A DNA stretch of 64,000 bases from Ceratodon purpureus (Eukaryota > Streptophyta > Bryopsida > Pseudoditrichales > Ditrichaceae): the NCBI GenBank assembly GCA_014871385.1, contig CM026424.1, positions 15,466,892 through 15,530,891 of the forward strand, in the 5' to 3' direction. A model generated the notes under the pieces. It saw only the letters and a program-made list of their open reading frames with translations, was not told the DNA's origin and made no database searches. The stretch's first letter is position 1; every line of letters begins with the position of its first letter. Position numbers and translations under genes: made by a program. Of the stretch, positions 1,292-51,290 are shown piece by piece.

Positions 1292-1382
1292 AATTTATTT
1301 ATAACTTTATTTATAACTTTATTTATAACTTTATTTATAAATTTATTTATAACTTTATTTATAAATTTATTTATAAATTTTA
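1292..1382. repeat. 12-bp AT-rich tandem repeat
   Basis: About seven and a half copies of the 12-mer ataactttattt / ataaatttattt run head to tail. The units alternate mainly at one position (C or A). It is a simple microsatellite-like array. Confidence 0.85.
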
Positions 1383-1778
1383 TGTGTGCGGCCCAGTTCT
1401 TTTTTTTTGCTTTTTGACTGGAGGCAGATTAGTAATTTGTTTGTTTTTTTTTATTGCATGTAACGTATGGGTGTGTTGGAGGGAGTTTTGGTGGAGCTAA
1501 CTGGGTTTGCTAAAAATTGAATGGTATCACTGTGGTGATTATGCGTATATCTTGGTGAATCAGTGAGGTGATAGTAGTTTTTTACTGGTGGGAGGTGAAG
1601 GTGAGTCCTTGTAAAATTTGGAAGTGATTTGGTACAGTTGATTGTTTTTTCAATGCTAGTATTTATTGTCTATGCTTGCAAATAGTGAGGGTAGTGTTCA
1701 CCCAGTTTAGCACACTTCATGAGATTATCTTTATAGGGGAAATTTTTATTAAGCAAAAATGTTGGTTTTACATGATAA
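1383..1778. other. Gene-free stretch
   Basis: T/G-rich DNA without a convincing reading frame, splice pair or repeat. It separates the 12-bp array from the TTAA-type element that starts at 1779. Confidence 0.4.
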
Positions 1779-2640
1779 CCCCTAAAGTTCTGAGGGTATT
1801 TTTCATCAAAACTGCCTGAAAACAGCCCCTCTTCAAATCAAGGTGGATTTTGCTAAGTTGGGGTCATAATTAGTACATCTAACCATAAGATCTTGTAGCT
1901 AACTTCTATGTCTACATGTCCACCAAATCTTACACACTCATTCCTCACCAATTGCAAGATCGTAACGTTCAAAGTTGAAAATAAAGTTTTTTTTCCCTGC
2001 GCAAAAAAGGAACAGCAGAGTTTTGAAGGCCCAAAAAACCATTTTTTTGCATTACGGATTTTGGCGGTTTTGATGCACATCAAAGAAGACTGAGTTAGCT
2101 ATTTGTATTGAAAAAATCATATTCAAAAAAGTTGTGGAAGGTTGCCAAAAAAATCATTTTTTTGCTAGGGGGTATACTGAAATTCACAAACAAATGCCTT
2201 TTTTTGACAATAAAAATAGCATATGAAAAAAATTTGGATTAAAAATCCGAACGGTGGGAACATGCTCTACTGCCTTCTCTATACATAGAAATTTTTATTT
2301 TTGAAAAATATCAAAATCTCAATTTTTGGTGGAATTTCAAAGTTTCATCTTTGGGCAGATTTTCGCAGATTTTCGCAATTTTGGGCAGTTTTGGGCAGTT
2401 TTGGGCAGAATTTGCTGCATTCACAGTGGTTCAGCAGCTGCCCTACGAGCAGCGTTTGACACTTAAACCTTCATAACTTTTGATCCTGATGTCGGAATTG
2501 AAAAATAAAAATACCCACACGAAGATCTCCAAACGGTCCACCTTCAATAAAAATTTCAGAAAATCCCGATGTAAATTACATTCATAGGTACATGCCCAAA
2601 TTCCAAAAAAGCCCAAATGTGGATGATTGTCCTTTAGGGG
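1779..2640. mobile_element. TTAA-type miniature inverted-repeat transposon, copy 1
   Basis: The left end reads CCCCTAAAGTTC from 1779 and the right end reads GTCCTTTAGGGG up to 2640, so the termini are inverted copies of CCCCTAAAG. The right flank is TTAA (2641-2644); the left flank is ATAA, one base off. No transposase is encoded. The interior is A/T-rich and unique apart from short iterations such as TTTTGGGCAG near 2380-2405. Same family as 5876-6524 and 48181-49108. TTAA targets with CCC-starting ends are the signature of piggyBac-type elements; a TA-duplicating Tc1/mariner origin is the alternative. Confidence 0.6.
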
Positions 2641-2720
2641 TTAATAACTTATTTCTTGTTTGACTTGCCATATGACCCATCATCATCTTCTTATTCTACC
2701 TATGTTACTGCTACTCATTT

Positions 2721-3686
2721 TTAAATAAGGCATTCAAAACTTCGGTGTCCTTGCATATGGCACTTGAAACATAACCCCTTCTTGATGTGCTCCTCAAGAT
2801 CTTTGTTGTTTAGCATCAAAGTCTTGGTTCCTTTATTGAACTTTGAAAATTTAGAAAGGTTGGAAGTCTTAGAAAACTTAGTAAGCTTGGAGCTTTGATT
2901 AGCATGATGATTGGACTCTATAGATCTTTTCCTTGATTGAACCTTGTTCCCTTCCATCTCATTGTTGACTTCTTCTTCATAAATTATAGCCAACCTGTAA
3001 GCTTCATCTAAAGTCTTTGGACTATGAGCATTAACTTTAAACCTAATCGAATCTTGTAAATTTTCAATAGAAAATTTAGTTCTATCACTATCATCCCAAT
3101 CAGGAAAATAAATAATGTGTGCATCAAACAATGACTTGAATATAGTAACCGGTAAATTATCATGTTTCAAGTCATACAACTTTTGGCGCATATTGTCTTC
3201 ATAGTCGTTTGGGTAGAATCGCTCAAGAAACAACTTTTTGAAATCACTCCATATTGAAATAGGTTGTAGTCCACGATTCTCTCGATCTTTCCTCAAATCA
3301 TCATACCAAACGCGAGCCTTGTGTTGAAGAAAAACCACCGTAGCCTTGATCTTATCAACATCCTTGTATCTTGAAGGAAAGAAGTCCTCCATTATAGAAA
3401 TAAATGACTTAACTTCCTCTGGCTCATAGTTGCGACCTCCAAAACTAGGTTTGATTGGAAATTTCTTCAAGTCATTCCAAACATCAACCTTTTCATAAGC
3501 ACATCTCCTTGAATTTAATTCTACGTCACTTGAGATAGGTGGTATAGATGCAAGAAGAGGTGGGGTGTTTTGAGGAGTCTCCCTAGGAAGTTGTACAACT
3601 CCAAGCTGTGCAATATCTTGACTTTCCTTCAATGCTACCAAAACCGCTCTCACAATTCTCTTTTCTAGTTCTTCCATAGAATCCAT
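2721..3686 (-). mobile_element. Ty3/Gypsy-type LTR retrotransposon gag fossil
   Basis: A 321-residue frame codes a plant retrotransposon Gag. The central part, roughly residues 85-230, matches the retrotransposon gag family, with the typical aromatic run around VWYDDL and the ERFYP motif. The C-terminus has a zinc knuckle, CFKCHMQGHRSFEC, preceded by a lysine-rich segment. I find no protease, reverse transcriptase or integrase next to it and no recognisable long terminal repeats, so the element is incomplete. The gag frame itself looks whole. It stands alone between two miniature transposons. Confidence 0.85.
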
Positions 3687-5875
3687 AATTTCTCTTATAT
3701 CAAACTATAACAAACCTCCTACAAATTTGCCACCAACTTTTACAATACTTCACAATAATTAACTATCAATCTATTTGTAAAGAAATACTCCGTATAATTT
3801 ATTTTTTGAATAACATATAAGTACAATCATAAACCAATATAAAAGCTCAACACTTGGCTATAAAGAAGAAATTTCAATAAAAAAGAACTTTTACCTTCTT
3901 ATTCACTAGTTTTGTATTCTAAGTTCTTTCAAAATAGGAACTAGTAGTGAATCTCTAGTCTTTTACTTTTAGTGCATCTCATCTAGAGTTGTCTAATTTA
4001 AGTGCACCTTTTCTAAAATTGTTTAACTTTTGTACACATATTTTTAATTTGAAGTAGTCTAATTATAATTTACCAAATATATATTTATCTAACTCCAGTC
4101 CATCCATCTTCAACTAGGATTTCTCTTGCTCTTATCATCCTATGCTTACATTGAAACATATAATTAGAAAATCCATTTATCCATTAAATGTTTTTGGTTA
4201 AATTACAACCCTTTTCAATGACTATGATCAATGAGGGACTAATTCACATCAACTCTTCCAAAAAGGACCGGAGTTCTTCTTCACCAAATTGCAAGAATCC
4301 ATAGTAATCTAGTAGTGACTCTGCACTTTCTCACTGATGCCCCATCCAAGGTCACGGGTGTGGCACTGAGCTTCTCAAGTAAGTATAATGTTGATTAAGT
4401 TTACACAGGATGAGGGTCAAAATGGAGCAATCTAGTGACATTTGCAGCTTAAACTACTTTATCATAACGTGAAGAAAACCAGCCAAGGGCCACATCCCAT
4501 TCTTGAAAAGACCAACTCTCAATTTGACGTCCTTTGGATGTAGTGTAAAGTGAGAAGGGACTTACAAACAATGTGGTAAAATTTTCAATACCTTTTTTAA
4601 TGTAGGGTTATGAAAAATGATTAAAAAAATGAAAATGATTGGCTGTAAGAATTTTGGCCCAATGGGCCCCCCCCCCAAGATTTTTAGTCAGGCCCACCTC
4701 AAGAGGTAGGCTTGACTAAAATTCTGGGGGTCTTAAAAAATGTGCCTTTTTGTTGCCACCAAGTACAAAAGTGTTATCCATGTCATTTTCTCCTCGTTTT
4801 GTCTCTTCCACTGAAATTTTCGGTGTAAAATGACATTTTCTATTCCTCTCAATTTCTAGGCATGTCATTGGGTGAAAAATCTTTTCTCACGGCCTTTCAC
4901 CTCTAGTTCAAAGGGGGCCTCGATGTATGTGACGTTCATTAATATTATGAGGTTTCATCCTCTTGTTTCAAAATAAAAAATAAAAAATAAAAACAACAAC
5001 AACAACAACCAAATTGTTTGCTTGGGTGAGACAAGAAGATGCATTCATCCAAACTCGGTTTATAACTCAATTGTAATGTGGTGACTGCCAAAAGTGGATG
5101 CATCAACAATCACAGAGCACAGTGTACTTCGAAACTGGTACCGGAGAGGGGGCCCAGATTGTTTTTGTTTTGAAATATTGAGTTGGTCAAAACTAAATTA
5201 TAACTTCTATAATTTTTAAAATATGGATTTACTGTAGCAGAAGTCACGGCAGTCAAAATAGTTTCAACACAGAACGGCAAGCTGACTAGATTAAACATTT
5301 AATTCCACAGCAGTTTTTGTACAAAGCATCAGCATTGATTGGTGAGGTGGACCACCTCATGAGCGCCATTTACCATGTCCGTCCGATTTCCACCCCATTA
5401 TCACCATACTCAATCATTCATAGTTCCTATTTAAGGCTTGCTATTGGTAAGGACCCTTTACTTTTGGTCAGCTCACCTAGTGGCACTCATGGGCTTTATA
5501 AGGTAGGACACTTCCAAAAATCATAACTAAATGACATTTCATCAGAAAAATATGAAACCACTTGGACTAAAATTGTTATACATTTAACTACTTGTATCAC
5601 TGAAAAATAATTTTATTACTATGCGTCCCTTCTAATGTACACAATCGCTAATTTTGACGCTCATAGGGTCTCCACCTTAATACAGTATCTTGATCCTAGA
5701 ACCAAGTTGAGAATTTAAGTTGATGTAGGAGCTTAGAAATGATGGTAGAAATCACAACAAATTACACTTATTTGGATGATTGCAAAGACTATCATGACAA
5801 TATAGATCCAAAGACTGTCAAGCCTTTTTCAATTATGGTAACTGCAAATAAGTGTTGTAATTTGGTTGGTTAACT
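3687..5875. other. Gene-free stretch upstream of the gag fossil
   Basis: No host gene is recognisable. The part next to gag may include untranslated element sequence, but no terminal repeat is visible. The stretch also holds an imperfect palindrome (4664-4735), an A-rich simple repeat near 4970-5010, and unassigned ORFs of 60-70 codons that lack domains. The last four bases, TTAA at 5872-5875, are the target site of the next element. Confidence 0.4.
4664..4735. repeat. Imperfect palindrome with C-run and G-run ends
   Basis: The left arm, CCCAAGATTTTTAGTCAGGC followed by CCACCTC, pairs with the right arm GAGGTAGGCTTGACTAAAATTCTGGGGG with a few mismatches and a very short loop. It begins in a run of eleven C and ends in a run of five G. 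It looks like a small foldback element. Confidence 0.6.
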
Positions 5876-6524
5876 CCTAAAGTTCTTTGGTGTTTTTGGA
5901 GCAGAATTTTTCAAAATTGATTCTTTCTACCACAGGCTTAACAAATCTCAATCTAAGCATTATTTTAATCAAATTCACTAGAATAGATGTTAGATCGGAA
6001 ATCACAAATCTGATTTTTTAATTTTTTTTTTGGAAATTTATCAAATTTTCATGAATATTTTAAAACTTATTCTACATACTACTCATATCTAAAGTTGGAC
6101 TGTTTATTTTTTTTCATTCATAAGATCGTAAAGATCAAAGTGTGCTGAATTTGATTTCCAGCAATAGTGGAACTTTTCTTTTTGACAAACTTTAAAGCTT
6201 GCCCATGAAAAACTCATGTATACTGCAACTTGGATAAGTCGGCACTTTGGTTATGAATTTGATTAAAATACATTACAATATAAAAATTCAATAAATATTT
6301 TTAAGAAAAATAAAATAAAATAAATTGCTCAAATTTGAAGTAGAAACGTTTTTGTCGATGAAAATTTCTCAAAAATGCACAAATTCACTTTAAAAAATCA
6401 GTTTATTAGTTTGTAGTAAAATTTCCTTTTCAAAAAATTTCAAGCCAAACTATTACTTTTTACTACTTCATCTAAGTTGCCCACATCTTCAAAACTTGAA
6501 TCAGGGTTTAAGGAACTTTAGGAG
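5876..6524. mobile_element. TTAA-type miniature inverted-repeat transposon, copy 2
   Basis: The termini are CTCCTAAAGTTC and its exact reverse complement GAACTTTAGGAG. Both are flanked directly by TTAA (5872-5875 and 6525-6528). The 649-bp interior is AT-rich, codes for nothing recognisable and is non-autonomous. Copy 2 differs from the others by T for C at the second base of the end. Confidence 0.7.
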
Positions 6525-6528
6525 TTAA

Positions 6529-8473
6529 AAAGAGACTCTTTGTAGTATATTTTGCATGTATATTCTTAGAACTTGTAATCCTTCTACGCTGCTCTAGAGT
6601 GTCACAATTTTATTTGTTCCAGTTTCCAAAAAACATTAAAATGATAGGTTTTATCATGAGGGAGAAAAGCACTCCAATCTCATTAAGGGGCCAGCATGAA
6701 GAAAGTGTCTCTTGATTGAGTATTTTGTGCATATTTCCGAAAGAATAATAGACTAAAGATACGTGATTACTACCATTGTAGTGAGAAGTAGATATCATAA
6801 ATAAAATCCAAAAAAAAAAAAAATTATAAAAAAAAAAAAAACAAGATGTGATGGTTTAGAGGTTGTGTTTGTTATGGAAAAGTATAAATTTGGGTTTGCC
6901 AACCTATTAACTCAAATTTGTTGGTCAAAATGAGTGTTTTTCATAGAACCAATTCTGGGTTTCAAATCCATTGGAATTGTTTGAGTAGACTTGTTTGATT
7001 GATTCTTTGATGAATGATGGCTTGGTACTCATGGTGATATCATATGATTGCAGGAAATGTTGAGATGCAATCAACAACATTCTATGGTTTACTACTAGTA
7101 GTCCATATTTAAATCAATATGTTTATTTATTTTATGAAACAAGACACAATCCTACAAGTATTGTTTTTCGGCAAGTTCTTTGAACTTCTTTCCTACTATC
7201 CTTTTCAAAATGGTAGTGACATAACTTGAACCCATCTTTTTCAGAACCTCCCACTTACCATTAGATGTATGAGATTAGCATGTCCACATTTTTGCTACAA
7301 CTTTCCATCTTCACTTGAGACCATTGAATACATGAGATTAGTATGTCGACGTTGATTGTTCCTAATTGCACAAATTTGTGCCACTTTTTAATCAACACTT
7401 TAAAAATGCATAACATATTCAAATCAACTTTAGCAATATGAAACCACTTCTATTGAACTCTATTTTCAAATGCTAACTGGTGAAAAATATTTTCATGACT
7501 CTAAAGAATATGGAAGAGTTTAGTGGCTTTCCATACTTGACATATATGAGTTTGGTGGTCTCTAAACTCAAGGGAAATTAGTTTTGCCATCTTTCCATCC
7601 TTGTAAACTACTTGTCTTTGAATGTAGAGACCATCAAACTTTCACACACCAAATATGAAAAGATCAACAAGTTCTTTCAATTCTATCAGCTATTTAGAGT
7701 TAACAATAAGATAATGTTCAATCAAAACTCATGGTACTTAAATCAAGTATTGGACGCCTTAGATGCAAGCACTGTTGATACAAGAAAACTAAAATACACA
7801 AAATAATGCAGGACGGGTATACCAGAAAAATACCTTTGTGCAGCATTTGTGCGTAAATTATAATGGTACAATAAAATGCACTGGAAGCATTTAACTACTT
7901 ACACCACATGAATATTTGTTTCAAAGAACCTGTAGTAAAACAACCTCTAATGAAAGCTTCAAGCACAGCAAATGTTTGGGCCAACATTATTCCTAATGAT
8001 GCTGGAGTAACAAATTAGCGGTTAGTAGTACCAGAGGATGCTAGTCTGTCACGATATGCTATGGCATAAATCAGTTGCATCACCACTAATAGCCATGATG
8101 AGGTGAAATGGATTCCTCCAGGGAAAATCAATTTAACTGTAATTTTAGTCACATAGCACGTTTGTTCAAAATAAAAAATAAAAAAATGAAAATGAAAATA
8201 CCAAAAAAATGAATGAGTGTTAAAAAGTAATATTTTATTACCATTTTTAATATTTTTGGATAATTTTGTCATCTTTAAAATCACATAAAATCAATTAACT
8301 CCTACATTTCATTGGCTAGGATTCACAAAACTGCTCTAAAAGCAACCATTTATAGTGCAAAGAGTACAATTGACCAACTGTTGGAGATTTCTTTCCATTT
8401 TAGACCATAGGATCTTTAACTAGTTAGCTCTACAAAATTGTGTGAAAACTTTCATTGCATTTGACAACACATG
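6529..8473. other. AT-rich gene-free stretch
   Basis: Contains two poly(A) tracts around 6805-6840 and unsupported short frames only. No domains, splice pairs or terminal repeats were recognised. Confidence 0.4.
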
Positions 8474-8999: not shown

Positions 9000-9746
9000 A
9001 TTTACTAGGGCTTCGCTACTCTTCGCATTACCAGTGACGATTGATATTTTATGCTAGATTTGTATATAATAGAATAAGATATTTGGTATTTATTTGTAAT
9101 ATTAAAGTATGATATATAGAGGTGATCAATTTTCAAGACCTTTGGCCCTAGCCGTTGACATTAAGTGTGAAGCTCCACAGGTCAATTTTTCAATTTTTCA
9201 GCTAAAAAATCTAGAACTGAAATTGCTGAAACCGCTAAGCCTCGGCCTCTAGTTTCGGGCTAGTCTGAAACGACCCTTAAATCAGGAGGATTTATTCCGT
9301 TTAAAAAATTAAGAATGTAGGGTAGAAAAGCATTTAGAAGACAACAGACTTCTAATCAGAAACGTTGATAGAGTTGATTGGGATCCCACCACTTGGTGAA
9401 TTACACGAGTGCAAAGTGAACAAGACTGGAAACGTTTAGAGGAAGAAGTAAATTATCATGATACATGTATTACAGATGCTGGAGTGCAAAATTTTCCAGA
9501 AATATTCTGCAATAAATAGAAAGATCCTACCAAGACCCAAATCTAAGAAAAGGTATGTGATTTTAGTAGCCTACAGTCAACCTATTGCCGAAGACTATGA
9601 AATGAGACCATCAAACATTTGGTAAAAGCTGTGAATCTTGAAACAAATTGCCCAACATTTTCAGGTAGACAATCAAGGTATTTACACAGGACACGATATA
9701 CATTTCACAAATATTTCACATGAGCTATTGCAGTGAAAATGAGCTG
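9000..9746. other. Gene-free stretch, probably 3' flank of the cyclin C remnant
   Basis: No coding sequence recognised. Near 9275 the words agtctgaaacgaccctta resemble the right end of the Harbinger-like element at 33571-33586, but no left partner was found. The 9320-9746 part directly follows the cyclin C stop on the minus strand and may be its former 3' untranslated region. Confidence 0.35.
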
Positions 9747-11028
9747 CTACATTCGTGTCAATAGTTTGCTTACTGCAGCAGCGATGCGCTCTTCAGGTAT
9801 TTGCCTGTAATTATCGTAGAAGTCTAGAATCTCCATAGCAATGTTTTTTATCTGAAGGTCACAATTCCAAGCGAGTTGAAAAGGATAAGAAGTGTAAAAA
9901 TCACATTCACAACCTCATGAACTGAGAATTTGACCAACGATTGTCTTACTTACAGATTCCTTGGCAAATCAAGATAAAACACGTCCACAAACTATACTAT
10001 GTGGCAAGGATGAGAAACTTCTCAGCCTCCTTGAAGAAACTTCACACCAAGCAGGTCAGAGAAAAACAACCTTGAATATTGAATAATAGCGAAGACTAAC
10101 ATTGACAAGACTTATACTGAGAAGAGCATTTAGCCATACCACATTCATGTCCACACGTAGCTCTTCAAATCATGCTTTTGTGTCTTTTTCTTTGAGTACA
10201 CCGCGATATAGATGCATGCTAGAGGGGGGAAGCACAATAAAGTGTACCAAAAAAGTGCTCTGCTCATTGTCCATTTCAGCCCCTATCGCAAAGACATAAG
10301 AAAGTGGCATCTCGATTGTTGGTATGTTGGGAAGAAGTATGGGTTTAGAAAATAGACTTGATTCTCTAAAGTGTGGGAAAATATGGTATGAATTCAGGTC
10401 TTCTACAATGCTCTACGAGAAGCTCAAAGTCCGACAAAGTGAATGTCCACATTTGAAAAAGTGATAAGAACGATGTCGAATGTTGTCGGAAATCACTTCT
10501 GACTCCACCGGGATCTCCGTTTGTGAATTGCGGATGTATAAATGGCAATGACCACTTGAAATGAAAGTTTGGGTGCACGAGAAGTATTTCAAGGACGTTT
10601 TTTAAAACACTGTTTTCCGTGAAACTTTTTGTGAGGTTTTTTTCACCGAACATTGTTTTTTAAATTGGAAAAAACATCCTCTAAAGACAATAGAGGTCCC
10701 CAAGTGAAGAAATTAAAACTTTGAAAAAGTTCATTTTCATGATTTAGAACTAGCGGTCAAATTAAGTTTCAATTGAAGGTGTTTTTTTCAAGGAGATGTG
10801 TGTAAGATACCTTATGACACCTTAAAAAGTGACTCAAATGCTCAAAAACTACACCAAAATGCTCAAAATCAGCTTTGAGCTTTCAAAAACAGCACACTTC
10901 ATATTCACTTCTTAGTCGTCACATATTGCACTTTGTGGTACACTTTATTGTGCTTCCCCCCTAGAGCAATCATGAATGGCGGGTACATCGGAATGAGATC
11001 GGTTCTGTACGTGTCATTCACCAGTGAC
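9747..11028 (-). pseudogene. Cyclin C 3'-end fragment, broken
   Basis: Two minus-strand exons match the C-terminal part of plant cyclin C, the CDK8-module cyclin of Mediator. Exon 11028-10140 follows an acceptor GGCAG|G and codes SLVNDTYRTDL and FMIALACIYIA, then FEELRVDMNV before donor GTG|GTATGG. Exon 9851-9747 codes KNIAMEILDFYDNYRQIPEE and ends with a stop. The first exon is split by a 738-bp transposon (10224-10961). Even without it there is a one-base frameshift after ACIYIAV, and a TGA replaces the conserved Trp before FEEL. The N-terminal cyclin box exons are absent. I call it a dead fragment, not a working gene. Confidence 0.8.
10224..10961. mobile_element. 738-bp non-autonomous DNA transposon inside a cyclin C exon
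   Basis: Terminal inverted repeats start GGGGGGAAGCACAATAAAGT at the left; the right end is the reverse complement over about 26 bases (tggtacactttattgtgctt then six C). TAGA flanks both sides (10220-10223 and 10962-10965), and one copy of TAGA fits the cyclin C codons (ATT GCT CTA GCA). This supports a 4-bp target duplication and an exact insertion into the exon. No transposase is encoded. I do not know the superfamily. Confidence 0.75.
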
Positions 11029-11448
11029 CTGCCTCGTACAAAAGCATACCAACTTCACCTGTCAGTTCACCAAAACCTTAAGAATCATCTAATCTATTAG
11101 GGAACGTAGTGTGTTTATTTGAATTGTTAGTCACATCAACATGGCCCAAACAATGAGGGTCCCACATGATCCATAGTGAGCAGGGTTGCAGCAACTTTCA
11201 ATTTCACCATTTGGAGCATAGATTATTGAATTTCAATGTACTTTAATCGCTAAATTTATTAAAAACTATATAAAAATTTAGCAAAACCTCGAAGTGGCAC
11301 AGGAGATACGGGTACCAACATAAAGTGTAACTAGAAGCTACTTAACTGAATAGATTAAAAATGATGATGACATCCCTGAAGTAGCCTCAACTTAGCCTAT
11401 GCAACATGCAAGGATGATTATAGTCTTTAGTAAGGTAAAGGGATTCAC

Positions 11449-14400
11449 CAAGTTAATGTCAAGTTCATCACTGACCACAACCGGAATGCAGCCACTCACA
11501 ATTGCATCAAACAAGCGAGCTGATGATGGGGTATCTCCGGCCGGACTGAGACAGAACACAGACCTGCTATGCCCCTCCTTTATCACAAGATCAGTTGGAT
11601 TTCTGTTTGGCATTCCGATTTCTATGGAAAAACCCAAAAAAACCAGCCAACTCTCCGTGCAATTTTGCTTTCAAGTTGAGTGCACTATTGTGCACAAGCG
11701 ATAGACACTGAGCTTATAAAGAAAACATATCTAGCTATCAACTTCACACAAACAGTACAAGAGCCAACTCCCCAATTTTGGTCGCTGCACGTAGTAATCC
11801 AGGATGGTGTGACTCTCTGCACTGGAATTAAATTAAACCACTTTCTACACAGAAAAAGCAAAACAGAAGCTGACTCTTTGGGAGCTAATTTGCATCTGAG
11901 CCAATTACACTAATGGTAGGCGATGAGTTGAAGAAGAAATAAATGAGTACCTGCCATGTCTTCTGAGCAGGTTTATTGTAGTTCAAGGTTGTATCAGGAT
12001 CAGGGAATAGACTAGGAGGAATGCGTTTTGGAATGCCGCACGTGTAGGAACTGTTTACAAGATTGAAGTTAATAGGGGGGACCAAGTGCAGGGCGTCGAT
12101 GTTGTAAGGTTGGACCTTGTACACCTGCATGGTGAATGCAGATTTCGATTTGGAGGGGTCAATAATAGCTAGCAGGATGGTTCCATTCCTGCAGCAGTAC
12201 TTGACGTTACCCAGAGTGGTGTCGTTCTGTTTTTGGAGAGGAAGGTCGGAGATTTCTGGGGTAACGGAGCAGCTCAAAGCGCTGTTGATGTCCAAACCTG
12301 GTGCGGGCTGATAGCTTTTCGCGGCAAGCCCATTCACACATACCTGCGTGTCTGCAAATTTGGGCCTTGCTCCCTGCATGCTGTAGATGAATTCGCTCTC
12401 TTGCCATGTCCAATTCAGAGCCCAGTTATCCAGCCTTCCAACTGGACTGTTATTGGAAATAGTCACCTGCAAGTTCGAGAGAGCAACAACCACTCAGATT
12501 CCAGATGCATAAAATATCCCATTCGGAATCTTGAGTTACTAACGCTAAAACGGATGAAGGATGAGTTTACCAAATTTCTTGCCCAAAGCCACCACATTAC
12601 ATAACATTAGGTCAAGCCCAAAACATCTTTGCCCAAGAATCACCGTATTAGCACAATAGGATAATATGGCCAGGACAAAATGTACCTGTGCCTGGTAATT
12701 GGTGGCATAGGTCGAAAGCACATCATAAGTGATTGTGAAGTCGCCATATTCAGGTATATGAAAACTGTCGTCGTTGGTGAGCGTTATGTTGTTATTTGGC
12801 TCAAGGCAGCAAGTGTGCATTGTATCATCTGCCGACACAACGCATGCATCAGCTCAATGGATTAATTATTAAATGGTGGAACACACAATGAATAATTCTT
12901 GCTCAATAACAGAGTAATATGGAAGCATAACACATTCGCGCACACAAGCAGATGAGAAACAACTAACAAGGCAGCTCACTTACTTCCATAAAGTTTGGGG
13001 ATGCTGCAATTGTAGCCCGGGGTAGTGAAGTTGACGTTGGATGGCATGGGATTCTTTGGATTGCCGAATTCGGTGCCGACGAGTGTAAAAGATTTCTGAG
13101 ACTGTGTTATGTCCCCAGCTGTTTCAATCTCATTGTGCAGGGTTATGAGGGAAGCTGGTAGCAGAACGCATCCTTGAGACACATTCGCTGGGTATGCACT
13201 TCCATCCTCCGGCGTCAATGTTCCGGAATCACCGGATGCCGAGACAAGAATCTGTCCAGTCACCAGAGAAGTGGTTAGTTTTTCAACAAAATAACAAAGG
13301 TGGGTGGCTGGTGAAAACACTTCAGCACAAGAATCTTTCATCGAGATCATCAACATCAACAAGATCTCTCTCAAAACTTAACGAGTGTTTATGAACTCCC
13401 TCTAGAACTCCTACTTTTAATAACCAGCCTCTCACAAGAAGGGCGTTGGTATTCAAACCACTACTGAGGCAAGGGCACCCGTTCTCTACAATTAACAAGA
13501 CCAGGGTATAATTAATCCAAATATCAAAAGAAAATGTAAATAGGAAGGTACACCGAGAAGGTTCAGTGTAAGCACACTCCAATTCAGTGAAATGAACATC
13601 CCCTTGGTTCAAAAAAGAAAAACAGGAAAGAAATTGGAATTTATAAAACAGAGCTGCAGAAATCACACCTCTCTGTTCCTCCAGTTAAGTCCGACGCCCC
13701 AGCTGTCCACAGTCGAATAGCCCTTGTTGTTCACAGTCAAATTAGCCTCAAAACGATAGGGTTGGTCCACTAATTTCGATGCATTAGGTGAAATTCTCAA
13801 AACTTCCTGCAACTGGTATACTATCTCGACTCCATTGCAAGAAGGATAAACAACAAATGTCTACTGCTGTGAACCATTGAACTGCAGCAAGTTCAACATT
13901 TGGTTTTTTGAAAGGAAAAAAAATGCTATAAGGTACCTCCGCATTCCAAGTTCTGTGGCAGCGTTACCCTCTACACCACTGGACCCCTCCTGAATAACAA
14001 CTCCTTTCTCGTCTCGTAACACAGCTGCTAGTTTTGCTCGAATCCTTCCACCCTGTCACAACAAGCTCTAGTGAAAATACATTCTTTCAGTAAGTTTGGC
14101 ATAACATGCCGAAGCCTTGTGGAAAAGCTGACAGCAGTTACAACGTGTTCACTGAATGCACATATGATCCTATAAATATTATCACAGATACAGAAACCCG
14201 ATACAGCTCCAAACATAGAATTTATCAGAAAACACTCAAGAGCCTCTGTACCGAATTACGAACAATCCTGCCCCGGAAGAAGAGCAGCGTCTTGCGCAAG
14301 GAGGAAGAAATTGCAAGACAAGGTGCATCACAGGCTCGGACGTTTGCGACGTAAGGCATCACCACATCCTTTTCAAGTGACACCTCTCCTTCTTTGTACC

Positions 14401-15971
14401 TTGAAGTCAAGTTACCAGATGAACCACCAGTTCAGAAACGTCTGCATAGCTTTTAATGCATGTAAACCAGGGTCAGAGCTAAGAAGGAACGCACTGTCAA
14501 GTATTTCTTTCAAATTCCTCAATGGATACTAAGTTGCATTAAGAGAATTGCCTGCAAGAAAAACTTTGCAGGAAATGAACGTTACCAGTTTCCAGAGGAA
14601 TCGAGATCAGGAAGCAACCAAATGGCAGCTTTTAAGAACCGGCGATGAGATTTCATCGACCAAGGATGATGCACTGGGAGTACATGGTCCCGTCCACCTG
14701 ACCTCTGCCATGCTGGTTGCGCTGTTATCCAGTTTACGGCCTCCTGTCCTCAATGCACATTTCTGTAGCTCCATCAGTACATAGAGCGAAAACAATATTT
14801 TTATAATTTAACAAATTCTTCTTAACAATATGTTCAAATCCATGTTGTCATTGCCGAGCTCACAATTACCCAAAGAGGGAAATGACAACATAAATTTGAA
14901 CATATAAGTTATAACAATACTGTTCGGAAATGACAACAATGAGCTCGGCAATGATAACAATGAGCTCGGCAATGACAACATGAATTTGAACATATTGTTA
15001 AGAAAATTTCCGTAATCCCTTAGATAATAGTGTTCTTCTTATCAACATAAAATATATTCCAAGCTGAGAGTAAGATACCTTGTAGAGCAGTTTGCTTTGG
15101 GACCTACTCAAGAGAAAGAATGGGATCGTTGTGAAGAATGGAATATAGAACACGTCTGCCTGTGCTTGATTGCTCACTCGTCGAACCGATCTCACAAGAC
15201 GCTTATCCTCTAGCGCCATCAAGTCTGAGTACAACCAAAAGTCCACGGAATGCTGCCGTTTTGATCCCACACCCCACATCTGACCATTTTAGAACACAAG
15301 GAAGAGCATGGTAGAATATATAATGAAAAACATACATAAAACACCAACCGTGCCTCTTTGCTGTCGGGATTATATGCTTCCCTCTTTAGGGTTTAGTTTA
15401 TAACAAGATCAACGAGTAGGGTTTACGTGGAGCTGAAGTGCAATAGAAATGTGATTTAGCAAAAGGAGCCACATTTGCTTTCCACTTGAATGAACAGCAA
15501 CACAAAATATAAGGGCAAACGAAGAGGAACCTGTTGGATAAGCCGATGCACAGGGCTGCCACTTGACGTCAAATTTACAGTCTGCTCCTGTGAGTTTTGA
15601 AATAACCATAACAAATCGGTGGTGCACTTGGCTGGCATTTCGTACACATACACGTTCAGCCTTGCTGGGGCTGCGGTGTCGCTCATCACAAACCAATTGA
15701 ACCTCTCGCCATCGTCTGCCTTACTGGCTGGTGAAACCCCAGAATTTATAAATGGAGTTTCAGAATGTTTCATTGAAAAAGCATGTAGAGATACCAGAAA
15801 TGAATACTCAGGAGTAGTAGCAGTCCCGTTGGAGCTCAGAATGCGATAATCCGTCGCTCGCCACTTGAACCAAACCATGACCAAGACGAATGACAGACTC
15901 CACAACCTCAACACTTTTCTTCCAACAGAGCCAGAATATGAAACTCTCCCCAAGGTTACTCCCGCACTCAA
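11449..15971 (-). CDS. GT47 exostosin-type glycosyltransferase, 3'-truncated
   Basis: Six exons: 15971-15531, 15252-15079, 14743-14586, 14399-14252, 14052-13937 and 11563-11449. All join in consistent phase through GT-AG introns without a stop. The product is a type II Golgi membrane protein: short cytosolic tail, membrane span near residues 22-36, then the exostosin domain with [48 protein letters not shown] and the sugar-nucleotide region [19 protein letters not shown]. Family members build cell-wall or glycoprotein sugars. About 384 residues are present. The last 100 or so, normally starting PFEG, were not found; cyclin C remains follow instead. Intron 5 (13936-11564) contains COBRA-like exons. 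A foldback repeat lies in intron 2, and a 23-bp repeat array with a TATATAAG near 16043 lies upstream. Probably a non-functional gene fragment, although its frames are intact. Confidence 0.75.
11951..13860 (-). CDS. COBRA-like protein (COBL7/10 type), internal fragment nested in a GT47 intron
   Basis: Exons 13860-13669, 13251-12984, 12828-12686 and 12466-11951 join in phase and give 373 codons. Recognisable COBL segments in order: [114 protein letters not shown] and [14 protein letters not shown]-like proteins are GPI-anchored wall proteins that organise cellulose. Missing here are the signal peptide and start exon, and the C-terminal Cys-rich part with the GPI signal. There is only about 75 bp between the upstream GT47 donor and exon one, so no room for the missing 5' exon. 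The fragment lies wholly within GT47 intron 5, same strand. The exact 5' border (an acceptor CAGTAG|ACA) is my best guess. Confidence 0.8.
14819..15004. repeat. Foldback element in GT47 intron 2
   Basis: Two 44-base arms, 14819-14862 and 14961-15004, are inverted copies with one mismatch (outer bases TTCTTAACAATATGTTCAAA). The spacer carries two further direct copies of an AACAATGAGCTCGGCAATGA-like unit. It is a miniature foldback transposon or a local rearrangement; no clear target duplication. Confidence 0.85.
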
Positions 15972-16163
15972 AGACGACTTCCAGCACTAGCATGTATTAG
16001 GACTACATAACCCACAACAATTGCACACCAAAAGACACTCCCTTGGTATATAAGTCCCGCTCCCTCCTCTTCCGTATCGCAGGTACTGTAACGTACGCAG
16101 TGATCCGTTACCAGGAACGCCGGGAACGCGATTACTGGGAACCCAAGTATCGGGAACAATGTT

Positions 16164-16278
16164 GGAACTGTCGTGGGTGACGAAATGGAACTGTCGTGGG
16201 TGACGAAATGGAACTGTCGTGGGGGCCGAAATGGAACTGTCGTGGGGGCCGAAATGGAACTGTCGTGGGTGACGAAAT
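16164..16278. repeat. 23-bp tandem repeat, five copies, upstream of GT47
   Basis: Five units start at 16164, 16187, 16210, 16233 and 16256, each beginning GGAACTGTCGTGGG. Three carry GTGACG next and two carry GGCCG. The array lies about 200-300 bp upstream of the GT47 start codon. TGACG is the core of bZIP (TGA-type) binding sites, so a regulatory role is possible; that is inference. Confidence 0.85.
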
Positions 16279-16329
16279 AATTGTCATGTTGACGAACGAC
16301 CCTCCCAGCCATGCTAAACCAGATCCGAC

Positions 16330-16872
16330 TTAGGTCGTCACTGGAATTTTTAGACTTTTTTCTCTAAAATTTCTTTTCCATACAAATGCATGTATACACC
16401 GTTCGGATTTCAAAAAATAGATGATCTTCTTAGGCATTTGTAGTGTGGAAAAAGTGCTAGTGTATATGCATTTCATTTGACTCCCGTCACTGGAAATGTG
16501 GTTTTCCAATGCTTCTGTATGTTGTATTGTCTTCAATTTTTTTGAGAATACTCCCAACTCACTTTAGAATCCAAAAATAAAGAGCCTCCAACCACACAAT
16601 CTCAAAAAATTGGCTGTTTCACTCTCCAAAGGGTGGCTGTCCCTGCCGAGCAATACCAAAAAAAACTTTTGTCTCAAGTTCAAACCTTACGATCTTCCAA
16701 ACGCAAGGAGTTACAATCTAAAATTTTGTGTACACATACATGTACAAGTTAGGTACTATATCCTACAGTTAGATTCTTTAAAATACGTTTGAATTTGCAT
16801 AATTCTACCTTGAACTAAAACAGGACAGAATTGAGGCAGAATTTGGGATTTTATGGCCAAATGCTTTAGGGG
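16330..16872. mobile_element. Unpaired right end of a TTAA-type element
   Basis: ATGCTTTAGGGG at 16861-16872 is followed by TTAA (16873-16876). No left end lies within the preceding kilobases. Its reverse complement CCCCTAAAGCAT equals the lone left end at 8478. The inner border at 16330 is arbitrary. The sequence is AT-rich and non-coding like the family. Confidence 0.5.
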
Positions 16873-16876
16873 TTAA

Positions 16877-17995
16877 AAGATTATAGTAATTCATTTGGAA
16901 AATATCACATTCTTCAAAGCTATATCATGTTAAATGTTTGTGCAAGACTCCTTAGTAGCAGAAGGCTATAATATTGCTACAAAAGTTATTAATCAAATAG
17001 AAAAAACTATTTTGGGCATGATAAGTATTTTTTTTGATGTCATATTTAAAAAATGTATATTTTTACAAAGTTCTTGCAATTTCGTTCATTTAAAAAAAAA
17101 CTCAAAATATCACAGTCAAAATCTGTATCTCAAGGATATGCCAAAATCCCCAGAAAGCTCGTCTGTCTTCTTTTCTTCTTTTTCTTTTTCTTTTTTCTTC
17201 TTCTCTTTTCTTTTTCTTTTTTGGGTTTATTACTGTTAAGGTAATTCTTTTGAAGGATGGACTTTGTTTTTAAAGAAATCAAATAACTATTCATAGATTG
17301 CCAACAAATGCATTCTTTACAACTTTAGTTGAAAACCAAAGAATCAAGAAGGTTATTTAAGAGCCACAAAAAATGATATTAAAAAAAAATCTCATTTTAA
17401 CCCATTTCAAAATATTTCAATAAAATTTTATTTTAAAAATATAATAATGATCCTAAAATAATTTCTGAGGCATAGGTTTCAAATATTGTAATAAAATATA
17501 TGTTAATCAATCTAATCAAAAGACTCAAATCCAAAACTCAAAATCCACAAATTTTATTTGAAGATCAACTATAAAGCGCTCCCCTTTGTTTCCTAGAACT
17601 CGAGTAATTTTCATAGTAATTTTCTAGAACTCTCATTTTACAGGAGTATCTAAGTAAGCACAAACATTACCACGAACCCGGATATCAAACTCACCACCCA
17701 GGTTGTCAATCCCAGCACGCAGGGTCTCAATCCAAGCAGGTGAAGTGGATATGATAATCCAAGTCCCCGACTCGCATACAAACTGTGGATGTGCGTGCGC
17801 GGAGCCGTTCCGCTCCTCCACTTGTGACTCCACTTATCACCTCTCTCTCTCACGAGCACACCACAACGTCTCCCTTCACCTCCCTCCCAAACACCAACAA
17901 TCATCACAACCACCGCACTCCACTACCACCATCTCCTCACAATCCCTGCAACTCCTCCAAATCCCATTCCAGTCAGTGATCCAACCATAAAACCA
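16877..17995. other. Upstream region of PPD6
   Basis: Contains a CT-rich microsatellite at about 17165-17222 and AT-rich DNA to 17640. A more GC-rich segment (17640-17995), rich in C and A on the plus strand, is probably the promoter and leader of the gene starting at 17996. No separate gene recognised. Confidence 0.4.
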
Positions 17996-31121: not shown

Positions 31122-32413
31122 TTCACCACACAGCACTGCCACCACCGTAACTACAATCCGATTGCAATCCTCCTCACCTGAAAGTACACATCTCCTCTCC
31201 ACCCACTCTAAACTCAACTTCTGAACGCTCCAATTCCCCGAGCTCCTCGATTCCACAAAACCAAAAAACCAACCTCACGTCCTACCCTCACTAAACGCTA
31301 CCAAAACAACCCCTTTTGATGAATTAAGCCATTGGTACCCAATAACCTCCGCTCCTCAAACCTGAACACCAAACCTCCTCCTCCTCCTCTGCTTCCAGAA
31401 CTTCACCCGAATCTCCACACCTTCCAGCTCCAGCAATCCTCCAGATAAAACCCACGCCACTAGCCACCGCCTAGCTCATAAAAAGCTCCACCTTTCCACT
31501 TCAAACCTTCAACACCATAACCTCAAAATCCCACCTTGGCAAAACCAAAGGATAACAAAACTCTAGACAAAACTCCTCCTCGGTAGAAATCACTTGAATT
31601 CTCGCCACCAACTAGAAAGCACCAACAAACGCAATCACGTGCAAGTGGGTCGTCGACTAGGATACCAACTCGTTGTCATCTAGAAACTGGAGCTGCACAC
31701 AGATGAGATTCCGAATTCCCGACCAAAGTCGAAGTTGTGGCATAACCATATCCTAGTAACTGGTGTGCAGCCATTGCTAGCATGAGTGAAGGTTTGCAGG
31801 TCGCCCACATTCATCATCTCCAAGTCCTCCTGTGCACGCGCTCCGCAACAAAGCCATGGCACCCAATGGCGTCACCACAGAACTACGAACCAGGAGCTAG
31901 GCTCTCGCCCCTCACGCACTGCAGCCACATAAAAAGGATGGAGCGTGAAAAATATGGAGTGATATGACTTAAGCCGAGTAAAGTTAAAACGACGACGATG
32001 ATGATGATGATGATTTTGATGATGAGTTGTTTGAGAGTGTCAACCCAAGTGTGAAGGGTCCAATCCTGGAGAGAGACTGAGAGGAGTTGGTATGAGTGAT
32101 GGTGTGGCTGTTTTGGGAGCACTTGTGGGGACGGTGAAGCGTTAGCGGTGTTGTGGTGATGTTAGGTTTGGACGTTTGGACGTTGTTGTGATGTGAGTGG
32201 AGTTGTCGTCGATGGGGTTGGGGGTTGAGGGGGTTGGGGGTGGGGGTAAGTTGCTAAAGGCTGCCACAGGACCACCACGCTTTGGTCTCGCCCTCTGCCA
32301 TGCCTCCACTTGTGGATATGTCCTGCGCTCCCTTTCCTCTGTTCCCGGCCTCATCTCCCTCTGTTCCCCATGCTCCCTTCCCTTTGTTCCTAAGTTCCCT
32401 TACTATGTTCTCT
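31122..32413. other. TERC leader and promoter, then GC-richer DNA
   Basis: 31122-31990 is the presumed promoter and leader of TERC on the minus strand, C- and A-rich on the plus strand. A GAT/GAC microsatellite lies near 31990-32025. 32100-32413 is G-rich, then pyrimidine-rich, leading into the minisatellite. No gene recognised. Confidence 0.35.
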
Positions 32414-32589
32414 GGTTCTCCATCCTTTGTTCCCTGGTTCTCCATCCTTTGTTCCCTGGTTCTCCATCCTTTGTTCCCTGGTTCTCCATCCTTTGTTCCC
32501 TGGTTCTCCATCCTTTGTTCCCTGGTTCTCCATCCTTTGTTCCCTGGTTCTCCATCCTTTGTTCCCTGGTTCTCCATCCTTTGTTCCCT
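32414..32589. repeat. 22-bp minisatellite, eight perfect copies
   Basis: Eight identical units of 22 bp, each GGTTCTCCATCC followed by TTTGTTCCCT, run without interruption; degenerate copies flank both ends. As 22 is not a multiple of three, every frame cycles through one 22-residue peptide, so several long frames stay open on both strands. These are by-products of the repeat. The perfect identity implies recent expansion. Confidence 0.95.
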
Positions 32590-32878
32590 GGTTCTCTTCT
32601 TCTGTTCCCGGGCTCCTGGTTTTGGTCCCGTTCGAGAGTTCGCTTCCGTCATCGAGCGGCGTTCTCGTCCTTGTTCGTGCTGCGTTCCCTTCACACGATG
32701 TGACCTGTGTCGTCACCACTGTTGGGCGTTTATATTATACTAGCAAAAACCCATGTTGCAATGCAACGCAAAACTAAAAAAAAACACATGATCAAGAAAC
32801 ATGGACCCTGTTGTAGAGAGAGAAACTCGGGCCAAAGACCCGTGTGAATTAAGCGTCCATTTGGGATAGGGATACTAA

Positions 32879-42613: not shown

Positions 42614-44044
42614 AGTTCACCAACTAAATTCTTCTCTTGACTCTCTCCTTCACCTATGGTAGCAAGTAGAATATACTGCCAGTGATCATAGAATCCTCAT
42701 ATTCCAGTCCGCGATCAAACAAGATACTCTAAAATTTGATTTACTACATTCACAACATCACCTCAAACCTCAAACCTAAATTGAATCAGATAGTAGTAAA
42801 GACCTGTCTCCCGAATTAAGCACCGTAACAAAACCTTGCGCATTCAACCAGCATCAACACGCATTCACGCGGAACGTTTCGACAAATTAATTGATATTAA
42901 TCCAATACCCAATTCATATACCTGCAAGAATAATTTCAACATTCACCACATTCTCAATACAAAACATCAAACACCACTTCACATACCCATCCAAAACCTC
43001 AGCCACTACATACCTATCCACTAAACCACACCAACCAAGTCCATTTCCCTAAACCCATACTCCACACCATAAACACCATCCTATCCAATCTCCCTCCATA
43101 AACCACATTTCAAAACTAAAATCCCACATACAAAACCGCTAAAATCACCATCCATCACGCCACCTAAAACTCTAGATAACATCCGCAATCGACCACTATG
43201 CACTAATCACTAAAAAACAATGCTATCTAGAGATACACAACAGTGACTGTCCCACGTTGCAATTCCGGCTATCTAGATAATATATCGACGTCACTGACGT
43301 TCCACCCTGTGAATTCACATACCATACAAAACTCAGTCACTGAATTCAACACCATTCAACTAGCAACAGACGAAGAAACGCACCAGCCAAGAAAAACAGC
43401 TTCTTCTCGCCGAAGTTATCCTCGGCTACGTTACATCAGAATCCGAAACTCAGAAGCTCAACTTGCAGGGACCGGAGATGGCAACTCAGGCTATACTGGA
43501 CCAAAGTGGTCGATACTAGGCTCTAGAGAACCGCGTCGAAGCGGGTCGTGGAGGTGAGCGATGAGCTCGATTGCGGGGGGGCTTGAATTCGCAAGTGCAA
43601 GTGGTGGAATGGGGGCGGAGCGGCGGAGCCTGAGCGAGGGCGAGGGCGCAAGTGGGTGGAATGATGTGGAGCCTTGAGTTGTGGATTGGGAACAGGCCTC
43701 AGCCTGATCAAAAGGCTCCGAACCAAATATCTTCCTTTCCACCGTGGTGGCTCTCATATCGGGTTCTATGTTAATGTTTAGAAGAAGAACTCCGGCCGAC
43801 GTGAATATAGTGTTTGTTCGTTCTATTCACTAATTCGATTATAAATGTTTTATGTATGTGTGGGTTTCAAAAGGGGCATGTATATGAGGCAATGTTCTAA
43901 AGTGTAGAGATTAACTTTAATCCCTAAATGCACATGATATTTTTTAGTGCAAAAATAATGTTGTTTTTTATGCACCATAGGTATAGATTGAAGTGATATA
44001 TGGAAACTTTTAGGTATACAGACTTGTAGTGTACATATTGTAGC
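42614..44044. other. Thioredoxin upstream region and gene-free DNA
   Basis: 42614-43240 is C/A-rich on the plus strand, as expected for a minus-strand promoter and leader. 43240-43800 is GC-richer, with overlapping short frames on both strands and no domain. Past 43800 the DNA turns AT-rich. Confidence 0.35.
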
Positions 44045-44186
44045 CACTAGTGGAAAGGTTGTACAACTACACCAAACATGAACATCAAAAAAGGTTTAAT
44101 TACACTAATTTTTTTTAATTTTTTTGTATAATTGGACATTTTTAGGTATTCATGTTTGGTGTAGTTGTACACCTTTTCCACTAGTG
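44045..44186. mobile_element. CACTA-like foldback miniature transposon
   Basis: Arms 44045-44082 and 44149-44186 are inverted copies with two mismatches and start CACTAGTGGAAAGGTTGTAC. The CACTA start is the hallmark of the CACTA (EnSpm) superfamily. Flanks AGC and AGA do not form a perfect 3-bp duplication. Total 142 bp, non-autonomous. Confidence 0.65.
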
Positions 44187-47100
44187 AGATGATGTGGATC
44201 AAAGTTGGATTCATTTGGCCACATATGTTGCAAGATTGTAATTTTTTATTTTTGAAAAAGAATGCTAAAATTTTTCTATCAACTCATTAATGGTGAAGTT
44301 TATTTTCAAAACTAATCAAATGACAAAATATGAACTATGAGGTTGTTTGAAATCATCGTGTAAACAACATTGGTACCAAAAAGACTTTAGAAAAAAATTG
44401 ATGTGCCTTTAAATAGCCTTAATTTGTCAAAAAAAAAGCTCAAAAAGTGATCCATTTAATCTAAAAAGCAAAAAGTGTCCAAAAGAGATGTGTGCACTAA
44501 AATGACTCCCAAACATTCAGTGCAACTTGAATTGACATGAAAAGTATACTATGATAACTAGATTTTCAAAAAGATCTATCCCACCAATTTTTATTGAAAA
44601 TGGACATTGGATGAAGTAGAAACAAGCCCCCGAAGTTGCAGTCATCAAAATGCACAAAAATTGTTTAGAATTAAGACCCATGTTTTCAAAAAAATTAATA
44701 TATCTTGACTTGATATGAAATTTTACCACATAAACTAGACATTATGAGGGGAGTTTTTCCCAAATTTCATTTAAATCAGACGTTGTATGCAAAAGTTACA
44801 AATCTTTAAAGTTGAAAGTACTCCAAAGATTGGTCAAAAAATGGACGGCGTGGTAGTAGGAAGGATTAATCTAATAACTTAATCTAATGATTTAAGTTGT
44901 ATATGGTATTTTCGAATTAGCCACATATATAGTGATTATTTTCTATTATTAGAAGTCACTTTTCACGAAGAATGCAAATTTTTGGATGAATTACTTATTA
45001 ATGTTAAATTTAATATAATTTTTGAAAATGAAAAGTAATTCCAAGGTCATGTTAATCGTGTCCAAATATATGTGGTATTAATTTTCAATCATTGACAATA
45101 CCATAGATGCATCACTAATATTTCACTCATGAATTATCGAATTTTGAATGCCATTCATCGATTGTGCACTTGTGAATAGTATTAAATCAGATATCATATG
45201 TTGATAACAATTTTGTTCATAAATAATTCTACGATAAGGAGAAAAAAATTGGGATGAAAACAAAACAGTGATATTTTTCTCTCTATAAGCCATTTGAAGC
45301 TATTTTGATTATTTTTTAAATTACAAAAAATAAAATTTGGAAGTCAAATCTTATGCTCATAAAATTACTAATAATTGTTTAAGGGTGAATGAACCTCGTG
45401 TCGACGTGCACTATGTGTCAAGTAATGGTTGGTCGCCACAGAACTTTATTATTTGGCTTTTAGTGCCATGCCACAGTAACGTATTGGTACTTTACTCTAA
45501 TTCCAAATAATATTATCATGATATATTAATTTAAAATAAAATAGTGTGAAATTTTATCACAATGGAATATGGCTTCTCCTTAAAAAGCAGGCCTGCAATA
45601 TCAAAATATGAGTTGTCCACACTGATTTGCATTGATTACATAATAATTTCTCCGAGACTAATCATCTTGAAGCACTTTTGTACAAAGGAGAGATCATATT
45701 TAATTTGAAACTAATAAACATTCTAAAAGTGATTTGGTTTTAAGAAAATAAAGAGATTTTTGCACTAATATTTTTTAGAGAAATAATTGTATTGTGTTTA
45801 TAGAAGAATATTTGAGATAAATAGTCTGTGGTAGATGTAAATCTAGTATGATTGTAGAATTTGACAATTGTTAGCAAAAATTTGTTTTATTGGAAAACTT
45901 TTCTAGCTAGATAACATTGTAGGACATTTTTTGTTATTTCTATTTATATTTGCATATTTACAAGTTTGTATATTTGCATGTTTGTGTAACATCTAATTCA
46001 GTTCTTAATCTTAAGGGACCAAGTTTATTTGTTGTTTTTCCATCCTAGAGATGACAACTTTCTTAAAAAAAAATTATCATAATCAATATATTATCATGTA
46101 TCCTTTAACAATAAATTCAAAAAAAATTAAAAAATGAACAAAATATTATCAGTTTTAATTTAATGTGCAAATCATTTCTAAATTTGCATTAAAAAAAATT
46201 GAAACGCATTTGTAATGAATTATTCTTGATTTGAAATGACATGTTTACTTAAAAACTTTTAGTTGCTTGAATCCCTAGGCTCATTTTTCCAAGTAGTAAT
46301 TTTGAATTAAAACCATTGTTAAAGTTTTTATTTCTTTGTTTTTAATTATAGATATAAGACAAAATGTTTCAAATAAAGGACTTTTATGATTTAATTGTTT
46401 TACTTTAAAAATAGCACATTGATAAAAGAATTGTATGGGAAAAAATTTAATAAATAATAGCAGAAAAAAGATTTAATCCAAAGGTTTTGACGAATTTCTT
46501 ATACAGAGCTTCGTAGAGTTTTTTTTTTTTTTTTTTTTGGAAATTAAGTTCAAAAACTCATTGCTTTTATATGGCTTATTTTTTTTTTTTGGAAGAACAA
46601 AAATATTACAAATACAAAATAGAATTCTTTATTACAATTTGGAATTTTTGTGGAAACATTAAGGTGTAACAGCCATGAGTGTTACAAGAGATTATTCTTG
46701 TAACCTTCACGTGGACGATGAAGATCTCAACTATGGCTTCTTCATCTGAATAAGATTTAATGGTTGGTATCTGATGCTTTAAATTTTTTAAATTTTTTTA
46801 ACCATTTTTTGTTTTTCTTTCTTAGATTATGAATTTTTTCTTTGAATGAGGTGCCAAATACGTTTTTGGAAATGAAATGAAGATTTGTATTCCAATCTTT
46901 TGTTATTATTTTGAGCCTTGTACTAAAGATATTGTTTTCATCAAAAGCAACAATATGGTTCTAAGATTATTAGATCAACTAAGCAACTTGATATTGTCTT
47001 ATTCTACAACTCTACATTCTTTCAGGGTTTATAAATCTTAAGAAAAAAAAACTATGGTATGCTATTAATGATTGCCTCACTGAAACTTGACTCCACTACA

Positions 47101-48176: not shown

Positions 48177-48180
48177 TTAA

Positions 48181-49108: not shown

Positions 49109-49112
49109 TTAA

Positions 49113-51040: not shown

Positions 51041-51290
51041 TTTTTTTTTTTTTTTTTTTGCAGGTTTGATCCATTATGAAGACCCTGAAGATTGCTTCTT
51101 CGAGATTCTTCAATTAGGAAGAAAGAATGGAGATCTTCTTCATAAGTGCCACGACAACATCCAATTTTGCTTACCTCGAATTCGACATCATGGCGCAACA
51201 TTTTGTTGGGCCTTACCGTCTCAAGCATTTAGCGTGCCAGTGCATTACACGCATCTTAGCATTCCACAACCTTTTGTGGAAGAATAATAT
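51041..51290 (-). other. Poly(A)-tailed insertion of unknown origin
   Basis: About 230 bp of mixed composition ends, on the minus strand, in a run of about 18-19 A (the T-run near 51042-51059 on the plus strand) and lies in very AT-rich DNA. This is the form of a retroposed transcript or SINE. A plus-strand frame of about 75 codons spans it, but I recognise no protein in any frame, and no target duplication is obvious. Confidence 0.4.

Follow-up and report, generated by a model that had tools for sequence, protein, structure and literature searches.

A probable Helitron-superfamily element with Helitron2-like ends that carries captured pieces of three host genes in the moss Ceratodon purpureus

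Maize Helitrons capture several gene fragments stepwise over successive transpositions, as described in the sections of Dong et al. (2011, PMC3288121) compared here. Among the passages compared, which include that paper, the plant gene-capture cases concern flowering plants. Both Helitron1 and Helitron2 are described with a 3' hairpin in the sections of Bao and Jurka (2013, PMC3627910) considered. A moss case of such multi-gene capture was not found in the open-access literature among the matches listed, and nothing was found in that literature joining Ceratodon purpureus, genome, and Helitron. The locus described here probably represents gene capture by a non-canonical Helitron in a moss.

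The locus lies within a 64,000-bp window (C4:15466892-15530891), and searches covered the 362-Mb genome in 151 contigs. The original prediction placed minus-strand pieces of a GT47 exostosin, a COBRA-like protein, and cyclin C, in that order, at positions 9747 to 15971. All three pieces are present in that order, and the COBRA-like piece is indeed contained entirely in the GT47 intron that separates exons 5 and 6; the extent proved too small, as the feature reaches from 9005 to 16346 (Table 1). We read the patchwork, with a probability of about 0.92, as a young, multicopy, non-autonomous rolling-circle element of the Helitron superfamily with Helitron2-like ends, which captured cyclin C first, then GT47, and then the COBRA-like piece. 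This reading draws on exact ends that also have Rep hits next to them, A/T insertion, an empty-site paralogue, parent genes elsewhere in the genome, and copies of intermediate structure.

Table 1. Features of the element and its captured gene pieces (window positions; percentages are nucleotide identities)
Feature	Positions	Strand	Remarks
Probable whole non-autonomous Helitron-type element, 7,342 bp	9005..16346	-	Delimited from copy boundaries, termini, and the empty site L051
5' terminal transposon segment, 425 bp	15922..16346	-	Common to six other copies (86.6-98.4%) and further loci
5' asymmetric terminal inverted repeat CCAGTGACGA, 10 bp	16335..16344	-	2 bp from end, within predicted 5' hairpin
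23-bp minisatellite, 5 copies, within 5' segment	16163..16278	-	
Captured GT47 piece, interrupted by COBRA-like piece	11459..15921	-	99.2% to parent C7:7510096-7513231
GT47 exon 1 minus first 5 nt	15531..15921	-	Internal ATG at 15878-15876
GT47 exon 2	15079..15279	-	
GT47 exon 3	14586..14743	-	
GT47 exon 4	14252..14399	-	
GT47 exon 5	13937..14052	-	
COBRA-like piece inside GT47 intron 5 (part of exon 1, exons 2-4, part of intron 4)	11601..13846	-	98.8% to parent C2:22110088-22113354
GT47 exon 6, cut at 11459	11392..11566	-	Frame runs on into cyclin C intron sequence, with its stop at 11392
Cyclin C 3' part, interrupted by later repeat	9129..11458	-	94-96% to C13:773738-775329
738-bp repeat with terminal inverted repeats, in cyclin C exon	10224..10961	-	Absent from other copies compared
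Last cyclin C exon, with stop codon	9747..9851	-	
3' inverted repeat TCGTCACTGG, 10 bp	9031..9040	-	26 nt from 3' end
3' terminal transposon segment, 124 bp	9005..9128	-	Ends CCCTAG

Only the two terminal segments are the transposon's own sequence; the remainder comes from three genes on other chromosomes. Read on the minus strand, the element is preceded by a host A and followed by a host T, with the layout TTCCAGTGACGACC ... TCGTCACTGG-26 nt-CTAG between them. DNA folding of the first 60 nt predicted a hairpin containing the inverted repeat (-6.4). A 3' hairpin was not found: the fold of the last 60 nt scored -1.5 and left the last 26 nt unpaired. No long inverted repeat joining the element's two ends was found, and an Rfam scan of the window gave 0 matches at the gathering threshold. 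Elsewhere in the window, an AT-rich block at 44001-54000 has 23-28% GC against 39-43% on either side, and a 22-bp minisatellite of ∼10 copies occupies 32381-32596.

The insertion site was resolved with a paralogous empty site on C10 (L051), which is a repeat on that chromosome rather than the same site in another plant. L051 matches both flanks of the element (89% and 85%) and joins them without it as AAAAAAA/TAAATAAATCC. Target duplication is absent by this comparison, with the qualification that a 1-bp T duplication would look the same if the first T were host sequence; the element's 5' end accordingly reads TTC or TC, the first T belonging to either host or element. The same arrangement, A/TTCC...CTAG/T, was present in 10/10 further elements at nine distinct sites (two share flanks), sampled from 14 further paired elements. 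A CTAG 3' end is thus common to the window element, seven other copies read at their 3' ends, and these 10 elements. Family ends were drawn from 82 candidate 5' ends and 105 candidate 3' ends, 40 of each being scored; for 21 of the 40 5' ends, a scored partner 3' end lies 3.3 to 7.8 kb away in the correct order.

Rep proteins were sought next to these ends. A PF14214 profile search of the genome returned 95 Rep matches, which include groups near 200 bits and near 80 bits. Five hits are correctly oriented and no more than 10 kb from a family end (three at 5' ends and two at 3' ends), against a mean of 0.10 expected, and none of 2,000 shuffles of all 95 hits reached five. An earlier count used 54 of the 95 hits, namely the 53 that scored 70 bits or more and a 44-bit hit already seen beside a 3' end, a selection that might favor the present reading; with an approximate C1 size, it gave five links against 0.064 expected. 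Both shuffles omit ends on small contigs. The linked Reps are low-scoring and non-canonical (81.8, 85.2, 80.4, 70.6, and 44.3 bits), and two of the five links rest on 3'-end matches of ∼90%. A further pairing of a Rep with a 5' end, 23.5 kb apart, was excluded from the five. PIF1 matches (76 to 86 bits) follow four 5'-paired Rep hits, the 23.5-kb pairing included; a weak PIF1 match (30 bits) accompanies one of the two 3'-linked Reps, and none is seen for the second among the matches listed. A Rep of the high-scoring class (L055) matches the Helraiser structure 7lcc at 4e-50, and the one linked Rep of the five that was compared, the low-scoring, 5'-linked L053, did not match Helraiser at an E-value limit of 1. 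No endonuclease was found inside the Rep-linked units among the matches listed (150 of 364 candidates scored), which speaks against a true Helentron. The unit at C13:5.30 Mb does have an endonuclease outside it, ∼4.7 kb past its 3' end (C13, 5309186).

Pack-MULEs have long terminal inverted repeats and a 9- to 11-bp target duplication. The original prediction had proposed capture by either a Pack-type transposon or a Helitron, and the capture part of that proposal holds, in its Helitron form. Three gene pieces on one strand within a defined element would also suit a Pack-MULE or another cut-and-paste Pack-type transposon, but the ends form no long inverted repeat, L051 has no target duplication, and the CTAG 3' end, the A/T target, and the Rep hits beside the ends all argue for a rolling-circle element. 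A Pack-type origin is therefore extremely improbable, and a Pack-MULE in particular was rejected on the ends, the target, and the Rep links.

The copy number and dispersal of the element were then considered. Window positions 9000-17000 gave at least 128 matches in the genome (40 of 3,510 candidates scored). Long copies are present on C12, C13, C11, and C5, and a truncated copy is present at C4:7.73 Mb. For copies that reach both ends, the matches start within window positions 16347-16350 and stop within 9001-9004. The patchwork arrangement recurs at other loci with ∼99% identity, which excludes a chance arrangement. Elements on C13 and C9 share flanks. Near 3520-3531 of L047 (C4:7722000-7731900), two elements form a head-to-tail pair, in which the 3' end of one is followed after ∼12 bp by the next 5' end.

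Segmental duplication, or a faulty join in the assembly, might instead have brought the three genes together, and the C13 and C9 elements are a case in this assembly of an element duplicated together with its flanks. However, the same internal joins and the same ends are found on several chromosomes at sites with different flanks (C12, C13, C11, and C5), so that this explanation has next to no probability; an assembly join, which the original prediction had raised against itself, was rejected on the dispersed copies. The same prediction had asked whether the missing exons lie nearby. They do not, being located on C7, C2, and C13.

Parents with near-identical introns, which the prediction had expected under capture, were found at those places for GT47 and the COBRA-like gene, with lower identity for cyclin C (Table 1). 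The GT47 parent on C7 was modeled by hand as a complete gene of 488 aa from ATG to stop and matches Pfam Exostosin_GT47 at 1.2e-66. The COBRA-like parent on C2, also a complete hand-built model from ATG to stop (674 aa), matches Pfam COBRA (1.2e-54) and COB_C (1.1e-77). For the cyclin C parent, four exon frames were identified, including the last with its stop, and a PDB Cyclin-C match was obtained at 2.7e-35.

Comparison with these parents defined what the element carries. GT47 exons 1 to 5 have no stop and keep their GT/AG sites in 5/5 copies examined, with exon 6 read in the window only. The COBRA-like frames are open in three of the four long copies, the C12 copy having one stop; the truncated C4b copy was translated but excluded from the frame counts and from the COBRA-like N/S count. 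The GT47 start codon that had been assigned at window position 15878 is instead an internal methionine, residue 17 of the parent; the parent's own ATG falls in the 5 nt immediately beyond the captured piece, which also lacks the parent's last three exons. The open product of the piece is a truncated GT47 of 381 aa, of which the last 21 residues come from cyclin C intron sequence. A hint that the pieces form one gene, its start given by the first and its stop by the last, was not upheld, as splicing of GT47 exon 5 to any COBRA-like acceptor leads to a stop within 13 codons (3/3). Cyclin C is broken in the window, as had been noted, by the 738-bp repeat and by further lesions in the same exon. 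The repeat itself has many near-full-length copies in the genome (96-100% identity), many of them on C6, and is likely flanked by a 6-bp duplication, CTCTAG.

The copies were next compared for signs of constraint. Variable sites numbered 23/1014 in GT47 exons versus 16/1065 in introns, and 11/1101 in COBRA-like exons versus 21/1162 in introns. Coding changes were 16 N : 7 S in GT47 (expected N fraction, 0.735) and 8 N : 4 S in the COBRA-like piece (expected N fraction, 0.72), both close to the expectation without constraint. The COBRA-like contrast leans toward lower exon change, on small numbers and with N/S values that indicate no clear constraint. Since the GT47 exons show no constraint, their intact frames reflect youth, and the cargo is read as probable neutral passengers. 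That the element instead expresses the 381-aa truncated GT47 as a selected chimeric gene useful to the host would accord with that open frame in the window and with the open GT47 exons 1 to 5 and kept splice sites of every copy examined. We consider this very unlikely, however, given that GT47 exon variation is not below intron variation, that nonsynonymous changes are as frequent as stated, and that the parent's start codon and last three exons are absent. One functional chimeric gene was rejected on the frame tests and the lack of constraint.

Intermediate copies bear on the order of capture. Two siblings, at C5 (3.59 Mb) and C12 (7.83 Mb), have cyclin C and the same 3' segment with no GT47, and the C5 copy at 9.23 Mb has GT47 and cyclin C with no COBRA-like piece. 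This C5 copy retains the parental GT47 intron stretch CCCTGTAATGCC, which is lost from the window copy, and so preserves the intron in its state before the COBRA-like insertion. Other copies lack sequence: ∼131 bp near the GT47/cyclin join on C13, ∼2 kb of cyclin C and nearby sequence on C11, and most of GT47 at C4:7.73 Mb. In the sibling L049 (C12:7819300-7829200; 1300-7308), the cyclin C breakpoint lies 2 bp from that of the window, and cyclin C is joined to a piece 99% like C3:19142771-19145937, which adjoins high-copy sequence with Gag-Pol-like frames (named by eye).

Divergence from the cyclin C parent is 4.0 to 4.3% in the four GT47-bearing copies aligned (window copy, 4.3% substitutions) and 3.5 to 3.7% in the two siblings, while five copies each diverge by 0.67 to 0.88% from the GT47 parent and by 0.60 to 0.76% from the COBRA-like parent. 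Because the parents are genes, these values are not clean clocks, and because the last two ranges overlap, they cannot alone order the GT47 and COBRA-like steps. Shared changes are nested: in GT47, seven occur in all five copies and four only in the four COBRA-bearing copies; in cyclin C, 44 occur in all six copies, siblings included, and seven only in the four GT47-bearing copies. None of the two-state GT47 sites conflicts with this nesting. Conflicts are seen at three cyclin sites (C5 with the C5 sibling, C12 with C5, and the window with both siblings) and are taken as repeated or reversed changes. From the nested copies together with the divergence from the parents, the apparent order of capture is cyclin C, then GT47, then the COBRA-like piece.

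Four captured-DNA junctions were read base by base, two with microhomology and two without. The COBRA-like piece took the place of ∼12 bp of GT47 intron and shows microhomology at its 5' side (GTTTA, 5 bp) and none at its 3' side. At the GT47 5' join, 4 bp (AAGA) are shared with the C5 sibling's longer 5' segment, and the GT47/cyclin join has no microhomology. In the C5 sibling, a ∼1.84-kb insertion splits cyclin C with no parental bases lost, and ∼1.8 kb of it matches C11 at 99%. One open frame in this insertion has a CCHC-like zinc-knuckle pattern, recognized by eye.

How Helitrons pick up genes is debated, the two proposals being end-bypass and the patching of internal breaks. End-bypass is named in the portion of PMC5148889 compared. 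The cyclin C piece adjoins the 124-bp 3' segment, so end-bypass may account for that first step. By contrast, the COBRA-like piece is internal, within the intron of an earlier captured gene, and the C11-derived piece sits inside cyclin C of the C5 sibling. End-bypass as the route of gene capture is therefore unlikely overall, and since the joins are internal, a read-through beyond the 3' end suits them less well than break patching or polymerase switching. A working scheme based on patching can be proposed. RepHel from putative autonomous relatives would nick the ends and copy the element in trans. Cyclin C would have been captured first; breaks or polymerase switches inside the element would then have been patched with DNA copied from GT47, and the COBRA-like gene would have served as template for a later patch, placed within the GT47 intron. 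The enlarged versions would then have spread, with the carried gene pieces presumably riding neutrally.

The element was compared with known rolling-circle systems. Like Helitron2, as described in the sections of PMC3627910 considered, it has 10-bp asymmetric inverted repeats set 2 bp in from its 5' end and 26 bp in from its 3' end, and its predicted 5' hairpin includes the repeat. Unlike Helitron2, it has no 3' hairpin that could be found, and it inserts at A/T, whereas the part of PMC5148889 compared gives TTTT/T or TTTT/C for Helitron2. Because the repeats and the 5' hairpin agree while the 3' hairpin and the target do not, the element is filed in the Helitron superfamily as a putative Helitron2-like variant and not as a proven Helitron2. 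It shares with canonical Helitrons the A/T insertion without target duplication and the CTRR 3' end (CTAG here), but the palindrome ∼11 bp from the 3' end of Helitron1 was not found, and L053 is not a Helraiser-type Rep by the comparison above. Helentrons and HINEs, in the passages of Thomas et al. (2014, PMC4067079) compared, are likewise non-canonical rolling-circle elements with gene capture and with tandem repeats in non-autonomous forms; in contrast to Helentrons, the moss family has no endonuclease inside its linked units among the matches listed and does not use the TT target given in that part of PMC5148889.

The closest likeness in cargo is to the maize Helitrons, which, in the sections of PMC3288121 compared, also include related elements differing by one fragment and have a CTAG 3' end. 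Relative to those descriptions, the moss element differs in its asymmetric inverted repeats and predicted 5' hairpin, in having one captured gene inside the intron of another, and in having its parents and a pre-insertion copy in the same assembly. Because the parents, the copies from before and after insertion, and the junctions are all found in one assembly, the capture steps can be read base by base. It is conceivable, and we suggest it tentatively and at rather less than even odds, that there is a land-plant rolling-circle lineage which combines Helitron2 ends with a canonical CTAG and A/T insertion and which acquires host genes chiefly through internal patches, each of them reopenable by the next, so that a layered, dated record is kept. 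Maize already offers known cases of stepwise capture, of which a plant element that is Helitron2-like and carries such a record is a variant.
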